DNA of 64,000 nucleotides from Natronomonas salina (GTDB taxonomy: Archaea > Halobacteriota > Halobacteria > Halobacteriales > Haloarculaceae). The notes beneath the pieces were generated by a model that was given only the letters and a program-made list of their open reading frames with translations, had not been told where the DNA came from and did not search any database. Positions 855 to 8,339 of the stretch are shown piece by piece. Made by a program: the position numbers and the translations under genes. Numbering within the stretch: the first letter of the stretch is position 1; each line of letters begins with the position of its first letter. Location of the stretch: the NCBI RefSeq assembly GCF_013391105.1, contig NZ_CP058335.1, forward strand, positions 3,472,001 to 3,536,000, in the 5' to 3' direction.

Positions 855-1889
855 CTACCGTGGTGTGGCGCCGGTCCCATGCTGGACGCTCTGTAGATCG
901 AACTGTCCTTCGGTCACCTCGATGCCGCCAAAGGAATCTGACTCGAGCAGCAGCGACCCGTCGAGGTCGGCGTAGTCGAGCAGCGGGAGCAGGTGGGCGG
1001 CACCGGCGATGGCGGCGTTCGTCTCGATCATGCAGCCGCACATCACCTCCAGCCCGTGAGCTCGCCCGGCGTGGATCAACTCCAGGGCCGGCGTGAGCCC
1101 GCCGGTCTTCATCAGCTTCAGGTTCGCGACGTCGCAGCGGTCGGCGACGGCCGGGACGTCGTCGGCGGTGAGGCAGGATTCGTCGGCGGCGATTGGCAGC
1201 GGCGAGCGCTCGTGGACGTGCCGGAGCCCCGACGGATTCTCGGCGGGCACCGGCTGCTCGACGAACTCGACGCCGTACTCGGCCAGCGCCTCGCACTTCC
1301 GGACGGCCTCCGTCGGCGTCCAGGCCTCGTTGGCGTCGACGCGCAGCGTCACGTCTGGGGCGACGGCGCGGATGGCCTCGACGATCCGCAGGTCGCGGTC
1401 GGTCCCGAGTTTCACCTTCAGAATCGGGTAGCCGGCGTCGGCGGCCTGGCGGGCCCGGCGGGTCATCGCCCGCGTGTCGTCGAGACCGACGGTGAACGAG
1501 GTCGGTGGACAGCCATCGGAATCGGCTGAGAGCCCGAGCAACCGGTAGACCGGCTGGTCGAGGAGCTTCCCGGCGAGGTCCCAGAGTGCGACGTCGACGG
1601 CGGCCTTCGCGGCCGGATTCTCCCTAGCTACCTCGTCCATCCGGTCGTGGATTTCGCGACGCGCGTGCGGGTCGCTGACGGACGCGACGACCTCGAGGAG
1701 CTCTGGCAGCAGCGCCTCGACCGTCGCCGCCGTCTCCCCGTAGTGCCGCGATGGCGCCGCCGCGCCGTAGCCGGTCTCCCCCTCGTGTTCGATCTCGACG
1801 ACGACGTTCTCGGTCGTAGTCGTCGTCCCGCGGGCGATGGTGAAGGGGACGTCCAGGGCCAGCTCGACCGTCTCGAAGCTCGGGTTCAT
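855..1889 (-). CDS. dgcA: Enolase-superfamily epimerase, likely N-acetyl-D-glutamate racemase DgcA
   Basis: The 344-residue protein has the muconate-lactonizing-enzyme/dipeptide-epimerase architecture: capping domain about 1-125, barrel after it. Visible catalytic parts are KVK at 158-160 (acid/base lysine), metal ligands in VDANEAW (D185), EQP (E211) and ADES (D236), a second lysine in NLKLMK (258-261) and CGCMIE near 284. By sequence alone it could be an L-Ala-D/L-Glu epimerase. The directly upstream DUF1611 gene, joined through a four-base ATGA overlap, matches the DgcN-DgcA pair described for D-glutamate use in marine bacteria and haloarchaea. There DgcA racemizes N-acetyl-D-Glu to N-acetyl-L-Glu. 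The substrate is inferred from context. Confidence 0.85.
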   Translation of the reverse strand: MNPSFETVELALDVPFTIARGTTTTTENVVVEIEHEGETGYGAAAPSRHYGETAATVEALLPELLEVVASVSDPHARREIHDRMDEVARENPAAKAAVDVALWDLAGKLLDQPVYRLLGLSADSDGCPPTSFTVGLDDTRAMTRRARQAADAGYPILKVKLGTDRDLRIVEAIRAVAPDVTLRVDANEAWTPTEAVRKCEALAEYGVEFVEQPVPAENPSGLRHVHERSPLPIAADESCLTADDVPAVADRCDVANLKLMKTGGLTPALELIHAGRAHGLEVMCGCMIETNAAIAGAAHLLPLLDYADLDGSLLLESDSFGGIEVTEGQFDLQSVQHGTGATPR

Positions 1890-2899
1890 AGTTGCTCGAT
1901 AAGCTCCTCGGCGCCGTCCCGGACCGGGTCGACCGCGGGGACGCCGATGGACTCCTCGTATGCCTCGATGGCCGCGTCGGCCTCGTCGTCGTCGAGTTCG
2001 TACGTGTTCAGCGCGCCGCCGAGCAGCTCCGCGGGCGCGACGTTCTCGGCGAGGTCGAGGTACCGGTCGGCCACCCGGCCGGGGTCGGGGATCGAGAAGG
2101 ACTCGTAGCCATGGATCGCCTCCCGGCCGGCCTCGTGGCAGAGGACGAGGTGGTCGGGCATCGCGCCGTGGAGGATGCCGCAGGTGACCGCGGAGTAGGC
2201 CGGGTGGAAGATGGAGCCCTGGCCCTCGACGAAGAGGTAGTCGTGCTCGTCGGCCCGCTCGACGAGCATCCGCTCGACGGCGCCGTTCGTGAAGTCGCTG
2301 ATCGTCCGGTCGATGGGGACGCCCCAGCCGGCGATCACGATGCCGGTCTGGCCGGTCGGGACGAACCCCGCGTCGAGGCCGGCCTCGCGGGCCGCCTCGA
2401 CCAGCTCCAGCGTCGTCGTCATCTTGCCGGTCGAGCAGTCCGTCCCGACCGTCAGGACGATCTCGCAGTCGAGGTCGCGAGCGACGCCGTCGGCGACGGT
2501 GAGGTCGTCCGGGGGCTTCCGGACGTCGCGCAGTTCGACGCCGTGCTCGTCGGCGAGGTTGCGGAACTCGGCGTCGTTCTCGAGGAAGTAGTGCAGCCCG
2601 GAGACGACGTCGGCGCCCTGCTCGATGGCGCCGCGGACGTCGGAACGCCAGGACTCGTCGAAGCCGCCGCCGATGGGGGCGATGCCGATGACGAGGGCGT
2701 CGAACGCGGGGGCGTCCTCGACGCCCTCGACGACGGGGACATCGTCGGCGTCGACGTCGGGCAGGTGGTCGCCGACGGTCGTGCCCGCCGAGTCGCGGTC
2801 GAGGACGGCGACGACCTCCTGGTCGCCGTACCGGAGGACACCGACCGCCGTCTTCGCGCGGTCCGGGAACTGCTCGTGGGCGAGGATCGCGATGCGCAT
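1886..2899 (-). CDS. dgcN: DUF1611 family protein, likely D-glutamate N-acetyltransferase DgcN
   Basis: 337 residues, DUF1611 family. The N-terminal part looks like a Rossmann-type domain. The C-terminal part starts with a P-loop-like GTDCSTGKMTTT near residue 155, followed by FVPTGQTGI, a DRTISDF stretch and VEGQGSIFHPAYS. The start chosen is the ATG at 2899 (MRIAILAHE), because upstream codons add a tail that does not resemble the fold. Overlap with the next gene is ATGA. Family members were formerly labelled NAD-dependent epimerase; work on DgcN shows acetyl-CoA-dependent N-acetylation of D-Glu. The pair probably forms a two-gene catabolic operon; the deacetylase that would finish the pathway is not nearby. 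Confidence 0.85.
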   Translation of the reverse strand: MRIAILAHEQFPDRAKTAVGVLRYGDQEVVAVLDRDSAGTTVGDHLPDVDADDVPVVEGVEDAPAFDALVIGIAPIGGGFDESWRSDVRGAIEQGADVVSGLHYFLENDAEFRNLADEHGVELRDVRKPPDDLTVADGVARDLDCEIVLTVGTDCSTGKMTTTLELVEAAREAGLDAGFVPTGQTGIVIAGWGVPIDRTISDFTNGAVERMLVERADEHDYLFVEGQGSIFHPAYSAVTCGILHGAMPDHLVLCHEAGREAIHGYESFSIPDPGRVADRYLDLAENVAPAELLGGALNTYELDDDEADAAIEAYEESIGVPAVDPVRDGAEELIEQL

Positions 2900-3080
2900 A
2901 CGCCCGGAGAGAGCGGCCGGCGGGATAAACACATCAGTTCGGCCCGCCGCCTTCTCTCGGTGACCGGGTTCCGGTACGTGACCGACCTGGTCGGATCGTC
3001 ACAACCAATCCCGAGTTCCCGTATCTTAATTGCAATTTCCAGGTGAACGTATTTATGGGGTGGTCGTGAGATGGTGATTG

Positions 3081-3099
3081 CTACCACATAACGTGGTAG
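3081..3099 (+). promoter_or_regulatory. Inverted repeat just upstream of the Tat-exported cyclase gene
   Basis: CTACCAC-ATAAC-GTGGTAG is a perfect 7-bp inverted repeat with a 5-nt centre, ending 6 nt before the ATG at 3106. A TATA-like stretch (GTATTTATGG, about 3049-3058) lies some 30 nt upstream. The repeat therefore sits at or just after the expected transcription start, a typical place for a repressor operator. A short RNA hairpin at the start codon is the alternative. Confidence 0.45.
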
Positions 3100-3105
3100 A
3101 CACCT

Positions 3106-4461
3106 ATGACCGACCATACCTGCGACCACGACGAGCAGCACGGAATCGACAGGCGGGGCTTCGTCCGAGGCTGTGGCGCCGCGATGGCACTCTCCGCGGC
3201 GGGCATCGGACCGGCTTCGTTCACCGCCTCGGCCCAGGCGGAGACAAACTACGGCGACGTCGGGGAGTTGCTCAATGACGCCCCCGACAACTGGGGTCGC
3301 TGGGGCGACGACGACGAACTCGGCGCGCTCAACCTGCTCGGAAGCGAGCAGGCCTTCGACGGGATGAAGGCCGCGATGCGAGGCGGGAGACGCGGCATCC
3401 AGACGTTCACGCTACAGGTCCCGCTCACGGGTGAGATAATCTTCGACCCGGCCGAAGCCGAACCCGACCCCACGTCGGAGACGGGCGATCCGGTGTTCCC
3501 GGGCCGCGCGCCGGCCCGTCGGAACAACGTTCAGGACGAGGGCTCCTATCGCGACGGCGAGGTGGAACCGCAGGCCGGGATGCGGTTCTCCGACGACCGC
3601 TTCATCAACGAGCTCTTCCTCCAGGGGACGACCCACGTCGACGCGCTCGCACACGCCTGGTACGCGGAACCCGACGACGGCGATGAGAGCCGCATCTACA
3701 ACGGGTTCGACGCCGCGACCACCGGGACGACGAAGCAGTTCGACCGGGCGGTCGAGAGCTGCGAGATCGAGGACGGCGAGCGGGTCCCCGTCGACGAGAC
3801 GCGCGGCCACGAACGCGCCGGCATCGGCGTCGCCGCCGACGAGGGCATCGTCGGACGCGCCGTCCTGCTGGACGTCGGTCGGGAACTGGGAGAGGACGGT
3901 CGACTCCCGCTCGGACACGGAATCACGTACGACGACCTCCAGGCGACGGCGGAGGCCCAGGGGACGCAGTTCCGAGAGCGGGATATCGTCTTCGTGCGGA
4001 CCGGAGCGATGGCCCGAACCCGCGACCCCGACCTCGAGTGGAGCCCGCTGACTGAGCCCGGGCTCGTCTACAGCGAGGAACTCGTCGAGTGGATCGCGGA
4101 GATGGACTTCCCCATGATCGGCGCCGACAACATCGCCGTCGAGAAGGTGATGCAGCGACACGAGGTCGACGGCGAGGAACAGACGTTCGTCATCCCGCTG
4201 CACGGCGCGCTCCTCCGGAACCTCGGCGTCTACCTCAACGAGATCCTGTGGCTCGACGACCTCGCCGAACAGTGCGCCTCGGACGGAATCTACGAGTTCC
4301 TCTACACCACCGCGCCGCTGAACGTCGAACGCTCCAGCGGCGCGCCCGTCAACCCCGTCGCCGTGAAGGCCACCGCGTCCGAATGCGAGGGTGAGACGGG
4401 CGGCCGGAGTGCCGACCGGCGTAGCCGGAGCGACGAGCCCGACGACCGAAGCGACGGGTAA
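3106..4461 (+). CDS. Tat-exported cyclase-family (kynurenine-formamidase-like) metal hydrolase
   Basis: A 451-residue protein of the PF04199 cyclase family. The N-terminus has a twin-arginine signal (DRRGFVRGCG, then a hydrophobic stretch ending near ASAQA at residue 45), so the enzyme is likely folded in the cytoplasm and exported. The family metal motif appears as GTTHVDALAHAW near residue 178, close to the usual HxGTHxDxPxH, and further conserved stretches include LPLGHGITYDDL and the near-C-terminal NVERSSGAPVNPVA. Members hydrolyse amides, esters or lactones; the substrate here is unknown. It is a single gene with its own promoter and a palindrome at the start. The last 25 residues are a charged Arg/Asp-rich tail unlike the domain. 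Confidence 0.8.
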   Translation: MTDHTCDHDEQHGIDRRGFVRGCGAAMALSAAGIGPASFTASAQAETNYGDVGELLNDAPDNWGRWGDDDELGALNLLGSEQAFDGMKAAMRGGRRGIQTFTLQVPLTGEIIFDPAEAEPDPTSETGDPVFPGRAPARRNNVQDEGSYRDGEVEPQAGMRFSDDRFINELFLQGTTHVDALAHAWYAEPDDGDESRIYNGFDAATTGTTKQFDRAVESCEIEDGERVPVDETRGHERAGIGVAADEGIVGRAVLLDVGRELGEDGRLPLGHGITYDDLQATAEAQGTQFRERDIVFVRTGAMARTRDPDLEWSPLTEPGLVYSEELVEWIAEMDFPMIGADNIAVEKVMQRHEVDGEEQTFVIPLHGALLRNLGVYLNEILWLDDLAEQCASDGIYEFLYTTAPLNVERSSGAPVNPVAVKATASECEGETGGRSADRRSRSDEPDDRSDG

Positions 4462-4504
4462 CGATCGCCGGTACGTTCTTTGGACTGGCCGCGAACGTTT
4501 CAAC

Positions 4505-5566
4505 ATGGTATCAGGTCGTGCGGGACTCGCCGTCGCGGCGGCGCTCCTGCTGGTCGGGGCCGGGGCCGCGACGCCGGCCGTCGCCGACGCGGACGACGAG
4601 TTCGCGGTCGTCCCGGCCGGCCAGCACGTCGAGGCGTCGGTCGACGACGGCGCCGCGGTCGAGTCGGCCCTCGTCGACGAACTGGACGTGGACCGGCGAG
4701 ACGTGCGGGCCGACGCCGACGCCAACACCGTCGAGGTACTCGTCGGCGACGTCTCGACGTCCGAGTTCGTCGATGCGCTCGACGCAGCTGGGATCGAGGC
4801 CAGCGAGAACGACGTCCGGGACCGACCCACCCTCGCGACAGTAGAGCGCTTCGGTTCTGTGCTCTCGACCCGTTACGAGTCCGCCGGGGTCGAAGCGAAC
4901 GTGACCGTCCGGGAGGACCGACTCGTCGTCAACCCCGGGGACGACGCCGAGACGGCGAAGGAACTGGCGTCGGTCCGCGGCGTCGAGCTGTGGGCGACGG
5001 TGCCGACCAAGGACGGCACCACTGCTGAGCTGGTGCTGACCGGCGACGACGTGGCGACGGTGGAATCGGTCCAGAAGTCCCAGGAGCGAGCGTACGTCCC
5101 CGTTGAGCTGACCGAGCCCGGCGCCGAATCGTTCCAGGCGTCGATGCAGGAGTACGGGTTTACACAGGCGGACGGCGTCGCCTGCGACTACGACGTCGAC
5201 GAACCGCTCGGCGCGAACCTCCAGGGGATGGACGCCGACGAGCGCTGCCTGCTGACCAGAGTCGGCGACGAGGTCGTCTACGCCTCCGGCGTCTCCACCG
5301 GCTTAGCCGAGAGCTTCCGGACCGGCGAGTTCGCCGCCGACCCGAAGCTACGTCTCGGGGCGCAGACGGAGGGGGACGCCGAGAAGATCGAACACCTCAC
5401 GCGGTCGGGGTCGCTGCCCGCGGAGACGACGGTGACCGCAACGGACGACGGCTCCCTCGCCGAGTCCGGTCGTGCGGTCACTAGCGACGGCGCCGGGTTC
5501 GGCCCGCTGGCGGCGCTGGCTGGCGTCGTGGGTGCGCTACTGCTGGCACGGGTCACTCGTCGATAG
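4505..5566 (+). CDS. Stand-alone SecD-ectodomain (P1)-like surface protein with signal peptide and PGF-CTERM-like anchor
   Basis: 353 residues. Residues 1-27 form a Sec-type signal peptide. The middle resembles the extracytoplasmic P1 region of archaeal SecD: YVPVELTEPGAESFQASM, an EYGF stretch, CLLTRVGDEVVYASGVSTGL, and an INLRSGALP-like HLTRSGSLPAE. The six-helix SecD membrane domain is absent. Instead the last 23 residues are GAGFGPLAALAGVVGALLLA followed by a basic end, like the PGF-CTERM signals processed by archaeosortase A. A surface protein derived from SecD is inferred; it could assist late folding or modulate Sec export. ATG 4505 was chosen because upstream codons precede the signal peptide without adding sense. 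Confidence 0.7.
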   Translation: MVSGRAGLAVAAALLLVGAGAATPAVADADDEFAVVPAGQHVEASVDDGAAVESALVDELDVDRRDVRADADANTVEVLVGDVSTSEFVDALDAAGIEASENDVRDRPTLATVERFGSVLSTRYESAGVEANVTVREDRLVVNPGDDAETAKELASVRGVELWATVPTKDGTTAELVLTGDDVATVESVQKSQERAYVPVELTEPGAESFQASMQEYGFTQADGVACDYDVDEPLGANLQGMDADERCLLTRVGDEVVYASGVSTGLAESFRTGEFAADPKLRLGAQTEGDAEKIEHLTRSGSLPAETTVTATDDGSLAESGRAVTSDGAGFGPLAALAGVVGALLLARVTRR

Positions 5567-5604
5567 TCGCCAAAGCGTACCGAGCGAGACGGTGCCGGTT
5601 CGGG

Positions 5605-6507
5605 TTACAGCCCGTAGAGCCGGACCGTCCAGAAGTCGTCGAAGGCGTCCGCGAGCGCGTCCTTCGGGTCGCCGGTCGCGTCGACGGCTGCCGTCGCGTC
5701 CGCGGTGACTCTCGCCTCCCCGTCGGCGTCGAACTCGCCGACGAGCCGGCGGTCGCCGACGACGTACAGCCGGTCTGCGTCGACGTCGGCCAGCGCGTCC
5801 TCGCACTTCTCGACGTGCGTGGCGATCTGCTCGTCGCGCAGGCGCTCGAACCGGGCCTGCGAGAACCCGCCCTTCGAGTGGTCGCTCTTGACGTCGGTCG
5901 TGAACCCCTCGTAGTCGACGCGTTCGTCGCTCTCGTAGACGCCGACGGCGAAGGTGTCCGAGCGGACCAGCGCGAACGCGAACCGCCCCGTCGGCTGGAG
6001 CCACGCGCGGTCTACACGGGGCGCGTCACCCCACTCGACGAACGGCTCCGGGTCGATGGGCGGGCGCGCGGCGACGGCCAGCAGACCGGCGTCGTCGGCC
6101 CAGACCAGACACGGCGCGGCCCGGTCGACGAGCGTGGCGCGGTCACCCAGTACGTCCGCGAGGTCCTCGGGGACGCCAGCCTCGACGTACGCCGACAGGA
6201 CGCTCTCGGGGTCGCTCTCGAATGACTCCAGCCGCGAGACGACGGATTCGAGCCGGCGGCCGCGGACCGACTCCTCGCGGCGGAACGCGAGGTCGGCGGT
6301 CTCCTCCCGCTCGGCGAGGCGGCCCTCCATCTCGGCGATGCGATCCTCCAGCCGGTTGACGCGCTCCTCGGCGTCCTGTCTGGCGCTGACGGCCTCGCTG
6401 CGCCGCTCGCTCTCGGCCTCGAGCTGGGCCGCCAGGCTGTCGCGCTCCTCCTCGAGGGCCTCGATGCGTTCCTTCAGTTCGGTCCGGCCGAGGAGGTCGT
6501 CGAGCAT
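5605..6507 (-). CDS. Vms1/Ankzf1-family (eRF1-like) peptidyl-tRNA hydrolase/release factor
   Basis: 300 residues. Residues 1-75 are a heptad-rich charged coiled coil. The rest matches the archaeal Vms1-like release-factor fold with the loop SDHSKGGFSQARF at 208-220; the GGFSQ element takes the place of the GGQ of eRF1. Eukaryotic Vms1 cleaves peptidyl-tRNA on stalled 60S subunits, so a ribosome-rescue role is likely here. No Zn finger or ankyrin part is present. The N-terminal coiled coil may bind the subunit or a partner. The start begins MLDDLLGRTEL, with only a short gap to the DUF5802 gene upstream, so both may share a transcript. Confidence 0.75.
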   Translation of the reverse strand: MLDDLLGRTELKERIEALEEERDSLAAQLEAESERRSEAVSARQDAEERVNRLEDRIAEMEGRLAEREETADLAFRREESVRGRRLESVVSRLESFESDPESVLSAYVEAGVPEDLADVLGDRATLVDRAAPCLVWADDAGLLAVAARPPIDPEPFVEWGDAPRVDRAWLQPTGRFAFALVRSDTFAVGVYESDERVDYEGFTTDVKSDHSKGGFSQARFERLRDEQIATHVEKCEDALADVDADRLYVVGDRRLVGEFDADGEARVTADATAAVDATGDPKDALADAFDDFWTVRLYGL

Positions 6508-6967: not shown

Positions 6968-7055
6968 TTTTGCCGTGGGAGAAAATCCGTGGGGTTGATT
7001 CCGTTACACAAGGCGCAGCTGATGCCACAATCAACCTCCTACTGCCGAACGAATG

Positions 7056-7063
7056 TTTATAAA
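7056..7063 (+). promoter_or_regulatory. TATA box for tnpB
   Basis: TTTATAAA, the strongest TATA box in this area. Its centre lies about 26 nt before the GTG at 7086, which predicts a leaderless tnpB mRNA starting at that GTG and argues against the in-frame ATG at 7053, which would lie upstream of the promoter itself. Confidence 0.6.
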
Positions 7064-7085
7064 ACATCACCCACCCAGAGAAGGT

Positions 7086-8339
7086 GTGGCGGCCGTTCGG
7101 AACATCCAGGTCAAACTCGAAGTGCCCGAAGAAACTCATGACGTGCTCGAAGAGACGTTCGAGCAATTCCGCGGTGCCGCCCAGCACGTTGCTGACTACG
7201 GCTGGTCCGATGAACCGACCGAGATTATCAGTGACCAAGGTGATCTCAATGCCGCCACGTACGATGAGGTCCGTGAGCAGACAGACCTCCATTCGAATCA
7301 CGTCCAATCGGCGCGACGGCTCGCAGCCGACGCGCTCAAAACTTGCCAAGATCGCATTTTCGACGGAAAGAAAACGAGCAAGCCCACATTCCGTGGGTCT
7401 GTTATAGTGTACGGCAGCCGCACAATTACATACAACGACGATTACTGCACACTCGCCACCGTTGATGGACGTGTTCGCGCCCACTACGTCATCCCGGAAG
7501 ACGAAACGGGTACCCCATTCGCGGAGTACTGGGATCGCGATGAGTGGGAGCGCAAGGAAGCGACACTCCACAAGCGCGATGGTGAATTCTATCTCCACGT
7601 CGCCGTCGAGCAAGAACTGGAGACGGCTGCGTCAACGGTCGAGAACGGAGTGGTTCTCGGTGTTGATCTCAATGTGGACGGATACCTTGCGGTCACGAGT
7701 ACGGGTCGTTTTCTCGGCAACGCGGATTACCTCAACCACAAGCGTGCTGTGTACGAACGGCGGCGCGGACGCCTGCAGCAGACCGGTACGCGGTCAGCCC
7801 GTCTTACAATCCAGTCGATTGGTGACCGGTTTGCTCGATGGAGTGACGAGTATCTCCACCAAGTTTCAAAAGCCATCGTTCAGGAAGCTCGCCGACACGA
7901 CTGTGCTGCAATCGCATTCGAGGATTTAGCGAGCATCCGTACCGGAATCTCGAACCTCCCAAAGTTCCAGCAGTGGGCGTTTCGCACGATTCAACGGTTC
8001 ACTGAGTACAAAGCCGAAGCAAACGGGATTTCCGTGGAGAGGGTTTCACCGGCATATACGAGTCAGCGATGCAGTCACACGGCTTGTGGATTCACCCATG
8101 AGAAGAATAGAACGAGTAACAGGTTCGAGTGTCTAAAGTGCGGAAAGGAACTTCATGCTGACTATAACGCTGCACGGAATATCGGGTGGCAGCTTGTCCA
8201 GCACTGGCACATGTCTGGTGCTGGACGCGCAAACTGTCAGGTTGCGCTGAAGTCAGGGACGCTGAATGGGAACGGCAAGTTTAGGCCTGCCGTCATTGAC
8301 GGCCAGACCAGGAGTCCACTGACAAGCCCACCTCATTAG
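7086..8339 (+). CDS. tnpB: TnpB RNA-guided endonuclease (IS200/IS605 family OrfB)
   Basis: 417 residues from the GTG at 7086; an ATG at 7053 would add 11 residues but sits upstream of the TATA box. The RuvC triad appears intact: Asp in GVDLNVDG (about 194), Glu in AFEDLAS (about 279) and Asp in HADYNAARN (about 359). A zinc-ribbon lies between the second and third sites, with cysteines in RCSHTACG and CLKCG. TnpB is a guide-RNA-directed nuclease that helps element retention. Codon use is less GC-rich than in the neighbours, a sign of transfer. The 3' end overlaps hairpins that probably form the guide RNA scaffold. No frameshift is seen. Confidence 0.92.
   Translation: MAAVRNIQVKLEVPEETHDVLEETFEQFRGAAQHVADYGWSDEPTEIISDQGDLNAATYDEVREQTDLHSNHVQSARRLAADALKTCQDRIFDGKKTSKPTFRGSVIVYGSRTITYNDDYCTLATVDGRVRAHYVIPEDETGTPFAEYWDRDEWERKEATLHKRDGEFYLHVAVEQELETAASTVENGVVLGVDLNVDGYLAVTSTGRFLGNADYLNHKRAVYERRRGRLQQTGTRSARLTIQSIGDRFARWSDEYLHQVSKAIVQEARRHDCAAIAFEDLASIRTGISNLPKFQQWAFRTIQRFTEYKAEANGISVERVSPAYTSQRCSHTACGFTHEKNRTSNRFECLKCGKELHADYNAARNIGWQLVQHWHMSGAGRANCQVALKSGTLNGNGKFRPAVIDGQTRSPLTSPPH

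Follow-up and report, generated by a model that had tools for sequence, protein, structure and literature searches.

The window, as we call the whole stretch of DNA analysed here (64,000 nucleotides of the Natronomonas salina genome), carries close to its start a gene for a detached P1 domain of SecD. The gene, its parts and its neighbours are:

855..1889, minus strand: dipeptide epimerase / enolase-superfamily gene, which we take to be dgcA-like, the usual neighbour of dgcN
1886..2932, minus strand: DUF1611 gene, presumably dgcN-like, left flank of an insertion slot
3106..4461, plus strand: gene that ends 43 bp upstream of the window gene; its product carries a Tat-type signal (RRGFVRG) and presumably belongs to the cyclase family
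4505..5566, plus strand: coding sequence of the detached SecD P1 protein (ATG start, 353 aa, stop codon included)
4505..4585, plus strand: Sec-type signal peptide, residues 1-27 (hydrophobic peak at residues 4-27; cleavage probably around AVA/D)
4622..4975, plus strand: base part of P1, residues 40-157 (NCBIfam match, alignment and AlphaFold2 model)
4976..5404, plus strand: head subdomain of P1, residues 158-300 (AlphaFold2 model and PDB matches)
5183..5248, plus strand: pair Cys227 to Cys248 (alignment; putative disulfide)
5480..5563, plus strand: PGF-CTERM-like sorting tail, residues 326-353, consisting of GAGFG, a hydrophobic stretch and RVTRR (profile scans)
5605..6507, minus strand: convergent neighbour, presumably vms1-like, right flank of the insertion slot

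The open reading frame at 4505-5566 looks like a real gene, as its GC content at codon positions 1/2/3 (0.77/0.49/0.87) resembles that of the neighbour genes and the other five frames have 3-7 stops each. The archaeal SecD family NF006215 (NCBIfam) matches residues 40-319 of the protein (E 1.5e-47); the score of 162 bits is far under the full-length cut-off of 666 bits, as expected with the membrane core missing. A six-helix RND-type membrane core was not found in the protein, and hydrophobic stretches are confined to residues 1-27 and 330-351. The Pfam P1 head stays sub-threshold (E 0.026), Pfam being too insensitive for detached P1 forms. In the AlphaFold2 model, residues 31-310 form one confident unit (mean pLDDT >90) and residues 313-329 a low-confidence linker. 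The best PDB matches of this model are all SecDF and the top one is the isolated P1 domain 3aqo (3aqo_A: E 3.8e-9, probability 1.00; 3aqo_B: Z 13.1 over 183 residues). The original prediction, a SecD P1 domain without the six-helix core, is thus borne out by the profile match, the hydrophobicity and the fold recovered in the structure comparison that it had proposed; the P1 match is real, but the range given for it (residues about 95-325) is too short, as it starts near residue 40. Cys227 and Cys248, which are invariant across 13 aligned detached forms and nearly so in SecD, probably form a disulfide, and the SecD motif GVTxxT reads RPTLAT (residues 107-112).

As it misses the core, the protein falls outside the equivalog definition of SecD and represents a domain derived from SecD that now stands in a new context. 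A frameshifted or split SecD is ruled out: as had been noted before, no frameshifted SecD core follows directly downstream, where the next gene (39 bp on, opposite strand) is the vms1-like one, and the window genome has an intact secF-secD pair about 0.4 Mb from the window gene, with a secD of 546 aa. The window gene itself has no adjacent secF. The genome's own secD is convergent with a gene for a PGF-CTERM surface protein (L210, G000:C1:3072972).

Surface proteins of haloarchaea are anchored by archaeosortase and by lipobox (PMC12186497). The window protein had been credited with its own signal peptide and a PGF-CTERM-like end, and both hold up: residues 1-27 are hydrophobic, with the twin arginine absent, and the tail, at 20.9 bits against PGF_CTERM in the whole-protein scan (cut-off 24.5), reaches 26.5 bits against TIGR04126 in the genome scan, above the cut-off of 24.5. 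The genome has 24 PGF-CTERM-like tails and several of them read AGFG, so that GAGFG is a usual variant there; it also has two archaeosortase A genes (325 and 306 bits). From these features we infer that the protein would be exported and then anchored outside by archaeosortase. The two archaeosortase A genes lie close together (G000:C1:578898-582776), next to the gene of a PGF-CTERM protein whose motif reads AGFG; it is unusual for a genome to have two.

A similar architecture in other haloarchaeal genomes, for which a search had been suggested, does exist. SecD itself is present in nearly all sampled genomes of the order, and about 54 of 392 have a second match to a profile that was built from 13 detached heads without their tails, and carry a detached P1, two of these matches being partial (G120, G290) and only part of the 54 having been read individually; the tail-free profile was chosen because the second matches of a tail-containing profile included other PGF-CTERM proteins. 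In a phylum-level sample of 148 genomes, those from outside the order gave only weak matches, which fell within SecD-sized frames. Four forms can be distinguished: full P1 with a PGF-CTERM-like tail (the window protein, L130-L137 and genus g90), full P1 with a lipobox (L138 in G352, L242 in G429), a PGF-CTERM form reduced to the head (L140-L149), and mini heads that combine a twin arginine with a lipobox (L110-L129). In the mini forms, the Cys pair and a large part of the head sequence are gone, and all 16 aligned ones keep the twin arginine and the lipobox GC; they are remote by sequence, yet the one that was modelled significantly matches SecDF P1 only. The original prediction concerned one protein; these results point to a family that recurs, is patchily distributed and uses two anchor types. 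The genes around the head-only and mini forms offered no clue to function, and a plasmid search and a further alignment scan found nothing. Our search of the open literature, which does not include most subscription papers, turned up no earlier account of an archaeal SecD P1 in detached form; since the SecDF P1 head is already named as a Pfam domain, isolated heads may sit unnamed in databases. One detached form (L133, 9555-11021, G215) has a start and signal peptide that look frameshifted.

For several detached forms, the best SecD match is the SecD of the own genome or genus, and phylogenetic trees show that detached P1 was born from resident SecD at least three separate times: L059 and L138 each group with their own genome's SecD (100/100 and 98/97, respectively) and the forms of g6 make up a clade (92/93) nested in the g6 SecDs (100/98). 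With at least three births, detached P1 is a recurrent architecture and not one clade, and a single common ancestor of these proteins failed the tree test. The repeated separate births suggest that the detached copies have a job of their own outside the cell. The window copy is likely a fourth birth: its best matches are among own-genus SecDs, it has in common with them local features such as RCLLT for YCLLT, and a clade of the two is compatible with the tree test (p 0.40). A grouping with the lipoprotein L138 in the first tree (80/93) was gone once L138's own SecD had been added. A gene-conversion scan of the window copy gave no clear mosaic.

The position of the gene has its parallels in other genera. 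In 14 inspected family genomes with no detached form there, the vms1-like, dgcN and dgcA genes are consecutive with gaps of about 25-110 bp, and vms1 and dgcN flank a detached form in the window, in genera g6 and g90 and in one genome of g13 (G238); in another g13 genome (G406) it adjoins vms1, on a fetched piece that did not reach dgcN. One ancestral detached-P1 gene in the vms1/dgcN gap, common to g1, g6, g13 and g90, was considered, and a clade of the window copy with the others was rejected (p-AU 0.0003; the branches are long). The gap extends over 2933-5604 in the window, and in two genomes of the window genus it contains unrelated genes instead (1783-6006 in L181 and 1549-3041 in L187). 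Given these unrelated genes and the cyclase gene of the window, the gap seems to accept insertions, which makes the common position weak evidence of orthology, and an insertion-prone gap may explain this position better than a single ancestral gene. The cyclase-family gene was not found beside other detached forms at the loci inspected. At 7053-8339 the window has a TnpB-type transposase gene, presumably of the IS200/IS605 kind.

Head and base of the detached forms differ in their conservation. Identity to the SecD of the same genome is 67% in the head and 33% in the base for L013, 57% and 28% for L059 and 46% and 33% for L138; L057, which misses most of the base, has 61% in the head and 34% in the middle part. 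Pairs of SecDs show no such gap between head and base (average identities of 40.5 for base, 45.8 for middle and 42.3 for head). The head similarity of L013, L057, L059 and L138 could reflect either constraint shared with the SecD head or copying by gene conversion. The pattern of head over base is absent from the g6 forms L131b, L132 and L133 (head 38-43%, base 31-40%). The window copy is fast-evolving, with an end branch of 1.2-1.3, and compared with L064, a SecD of its own genus, it has 51% identity in the base (residues 40-108) and 36% in the head; as its head shares no more than 36% identity with the nearest SecDs of the genus, the argument from head conservation does not apply to it. Among three genomes of genus g90, dN/dS is 0.36-0.41 at dS 0.30-0.57, indicating purifying selection on the detached forms of that genus.

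A direct neighbourhood with the export machinery is found in G429. Here, a lipobox-anchored full P1 gene, secF and secD follow each other in a row on one strand (L242, 6259-9965) with the detached P1 gene 13 bp upstream of secF, and the cluster is operon-like. It is the only one of 22 inspected secF-secD loci that a detached form adjoins; most of the inspected loci of detached forms have no export genes nearby. Among the proteins compared, the closest relative of this lipobox form is the PGF-anchored L013 (51%; head 63%): the type of anchor has changed while the tether stayed.

The explanation that we prefer, tentatively but with nearly even prospects of being right, is that the window protein is an archaeosortase-tethered SecD P1 that assists passively in late protein export. 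The cell exterior offers no ATP. The signal peptide would direct export, and archaeosortase would tether P1 to the outer face of the membrane; like the P1 head of SecDF, the detached head would there bind unfolded segments that come out of SecY, and it would hold them against backsliding or misfolding. Ion-driven pulling would be left to the resident SecDF, as a detached P1 without the core would use no ion flow. We infer both the substrate binding and the cooperation with SecDF. The P1 head of SecD contains the substrate-binding cavity, and binding of unfolded exported polypeptide is stated for it (PMC11470409); euryarchaeal SecDF is thought to enhance export, its exact role being open (PMC2910488). 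A role as export accessory is favoured by the smallest forms, which keep only the head, the part with this cavity, and further by the P1 fold, the archaeosortase genes with the AGFG tails, the recurrence, the exchange of anchors and the selection in g90. Indirect support comes from the G429 cluster and from several lineages in which the base drifts but the head remains close to that of the resident SecD. The same role is weakened by the window copy being fast-evolving with GVTxxT lost, by the single case of a detached form among 22 inspected secF-secD loci, by the 19 other genomes of the genus that were searched and do not have the detached form, and by gene conversion, which could explain the head similarity in place of selection.

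Some of these weaknesses would fit a surface binding domain repurposed for sensing, adhesion or ligand binding and unlinked to export. Mini forms that lack the Cys pair and a large part of the head sequence, loci mostly without export genes, the patchy distribution and the fast evolution of the window copy all agree with such a domain, which we nevertheless regard as unlikely: in several genomes the heads are similar to that of the resident SecD, and the operon-like cluster of G429 includes secF-secD. That cluster, with the detached gene co-directional and 13 bp from secF-secD, could also suit a decoy or regulator, which would damp SecDF by docking on it or would take substrates away from the SecD head in competition, the fold being identical and the side of the membrane the same. 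However, the base, which P1-like docking would need, is the very part that drifts or is lost, and there is no positive sign of inhibition; we consider this role improbable.

A truncated secD duplicate in decay, a relic without function at least in the window genome, has an equally low probability in our view. It would account for the lost GVTxxT and the long branch of the window copy, for the fact that only one of 20 genomes in the genus carries the gene, and for L133 in G215, which seems to be without an intact start. The window gene is nevertheless an intact frame of 353 codons with a genome-like codon bias and a confidently predicted complete fold; a signal peptide and a sorting tail would not arise by mere truncation, and neither the purifying selection in g90 nor the repeated independent occurrence is expected of a relic.

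Returning to the tethered export accessory, its generalisation is possible but rather doubtful: haloarchaea may time and again have converted the head of SecD P1 into a free, membrane-tethered holdase at the translocon exit that works without ion-driven motion. If true, this would be a recurrent class of extracytoplasmic export chaperones born from a translocon motor, and it would name a candidate chaperone for the haloarchaeal outer face. The SecDF head has so far been studied inside an ion-driven machine; naturally detached heads would separate binding from pulling, and their occurrence with and without the base makes a role of the head alone testable.

In comparison with known systems, the window protein resembles SecD of SecDF (NF006215; 3aqo, 5xam, 5yhf) in its complete, extracytoplasmic P1 with base and head and in the Cys pair of haloarchaeal SecD; it differs by its own signal peptide and sorting tail, and by having neither the six-helix core nor a demonstrated SecF partner and hence no ion-driven cycle. 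It shares the signal peptide, the tripartite tail and an archaeosortase in the genome with PGF-CTERM / archaeosortase A substrates (TIGR04126), such as the S-layer glycoprotein, but its body is a translocon-motor domain and not a surface-layer or solute-binding protein. PpiD/YfgM and SurA would be similar, should our explanation be correct, as passive holders at the translocon exit; their folds are unrelated and detached P1 claims no membership. The mini forms and the full-length L138 and L242 put the same P1 cargo on a lipobox, like haloarchaeal Tat lipoproteins, while the window protein is anchored C-terminally. Among the lipoproteins, one mini form (L124, 5905-6948, G327) has an additional N-terminal domain ahead of the head, and a lipoprotein of the window genus (L191, 2694-3659, G043) combines an extra N-terminal domain with a weakly P1-head-like end (E 2.6e-7).
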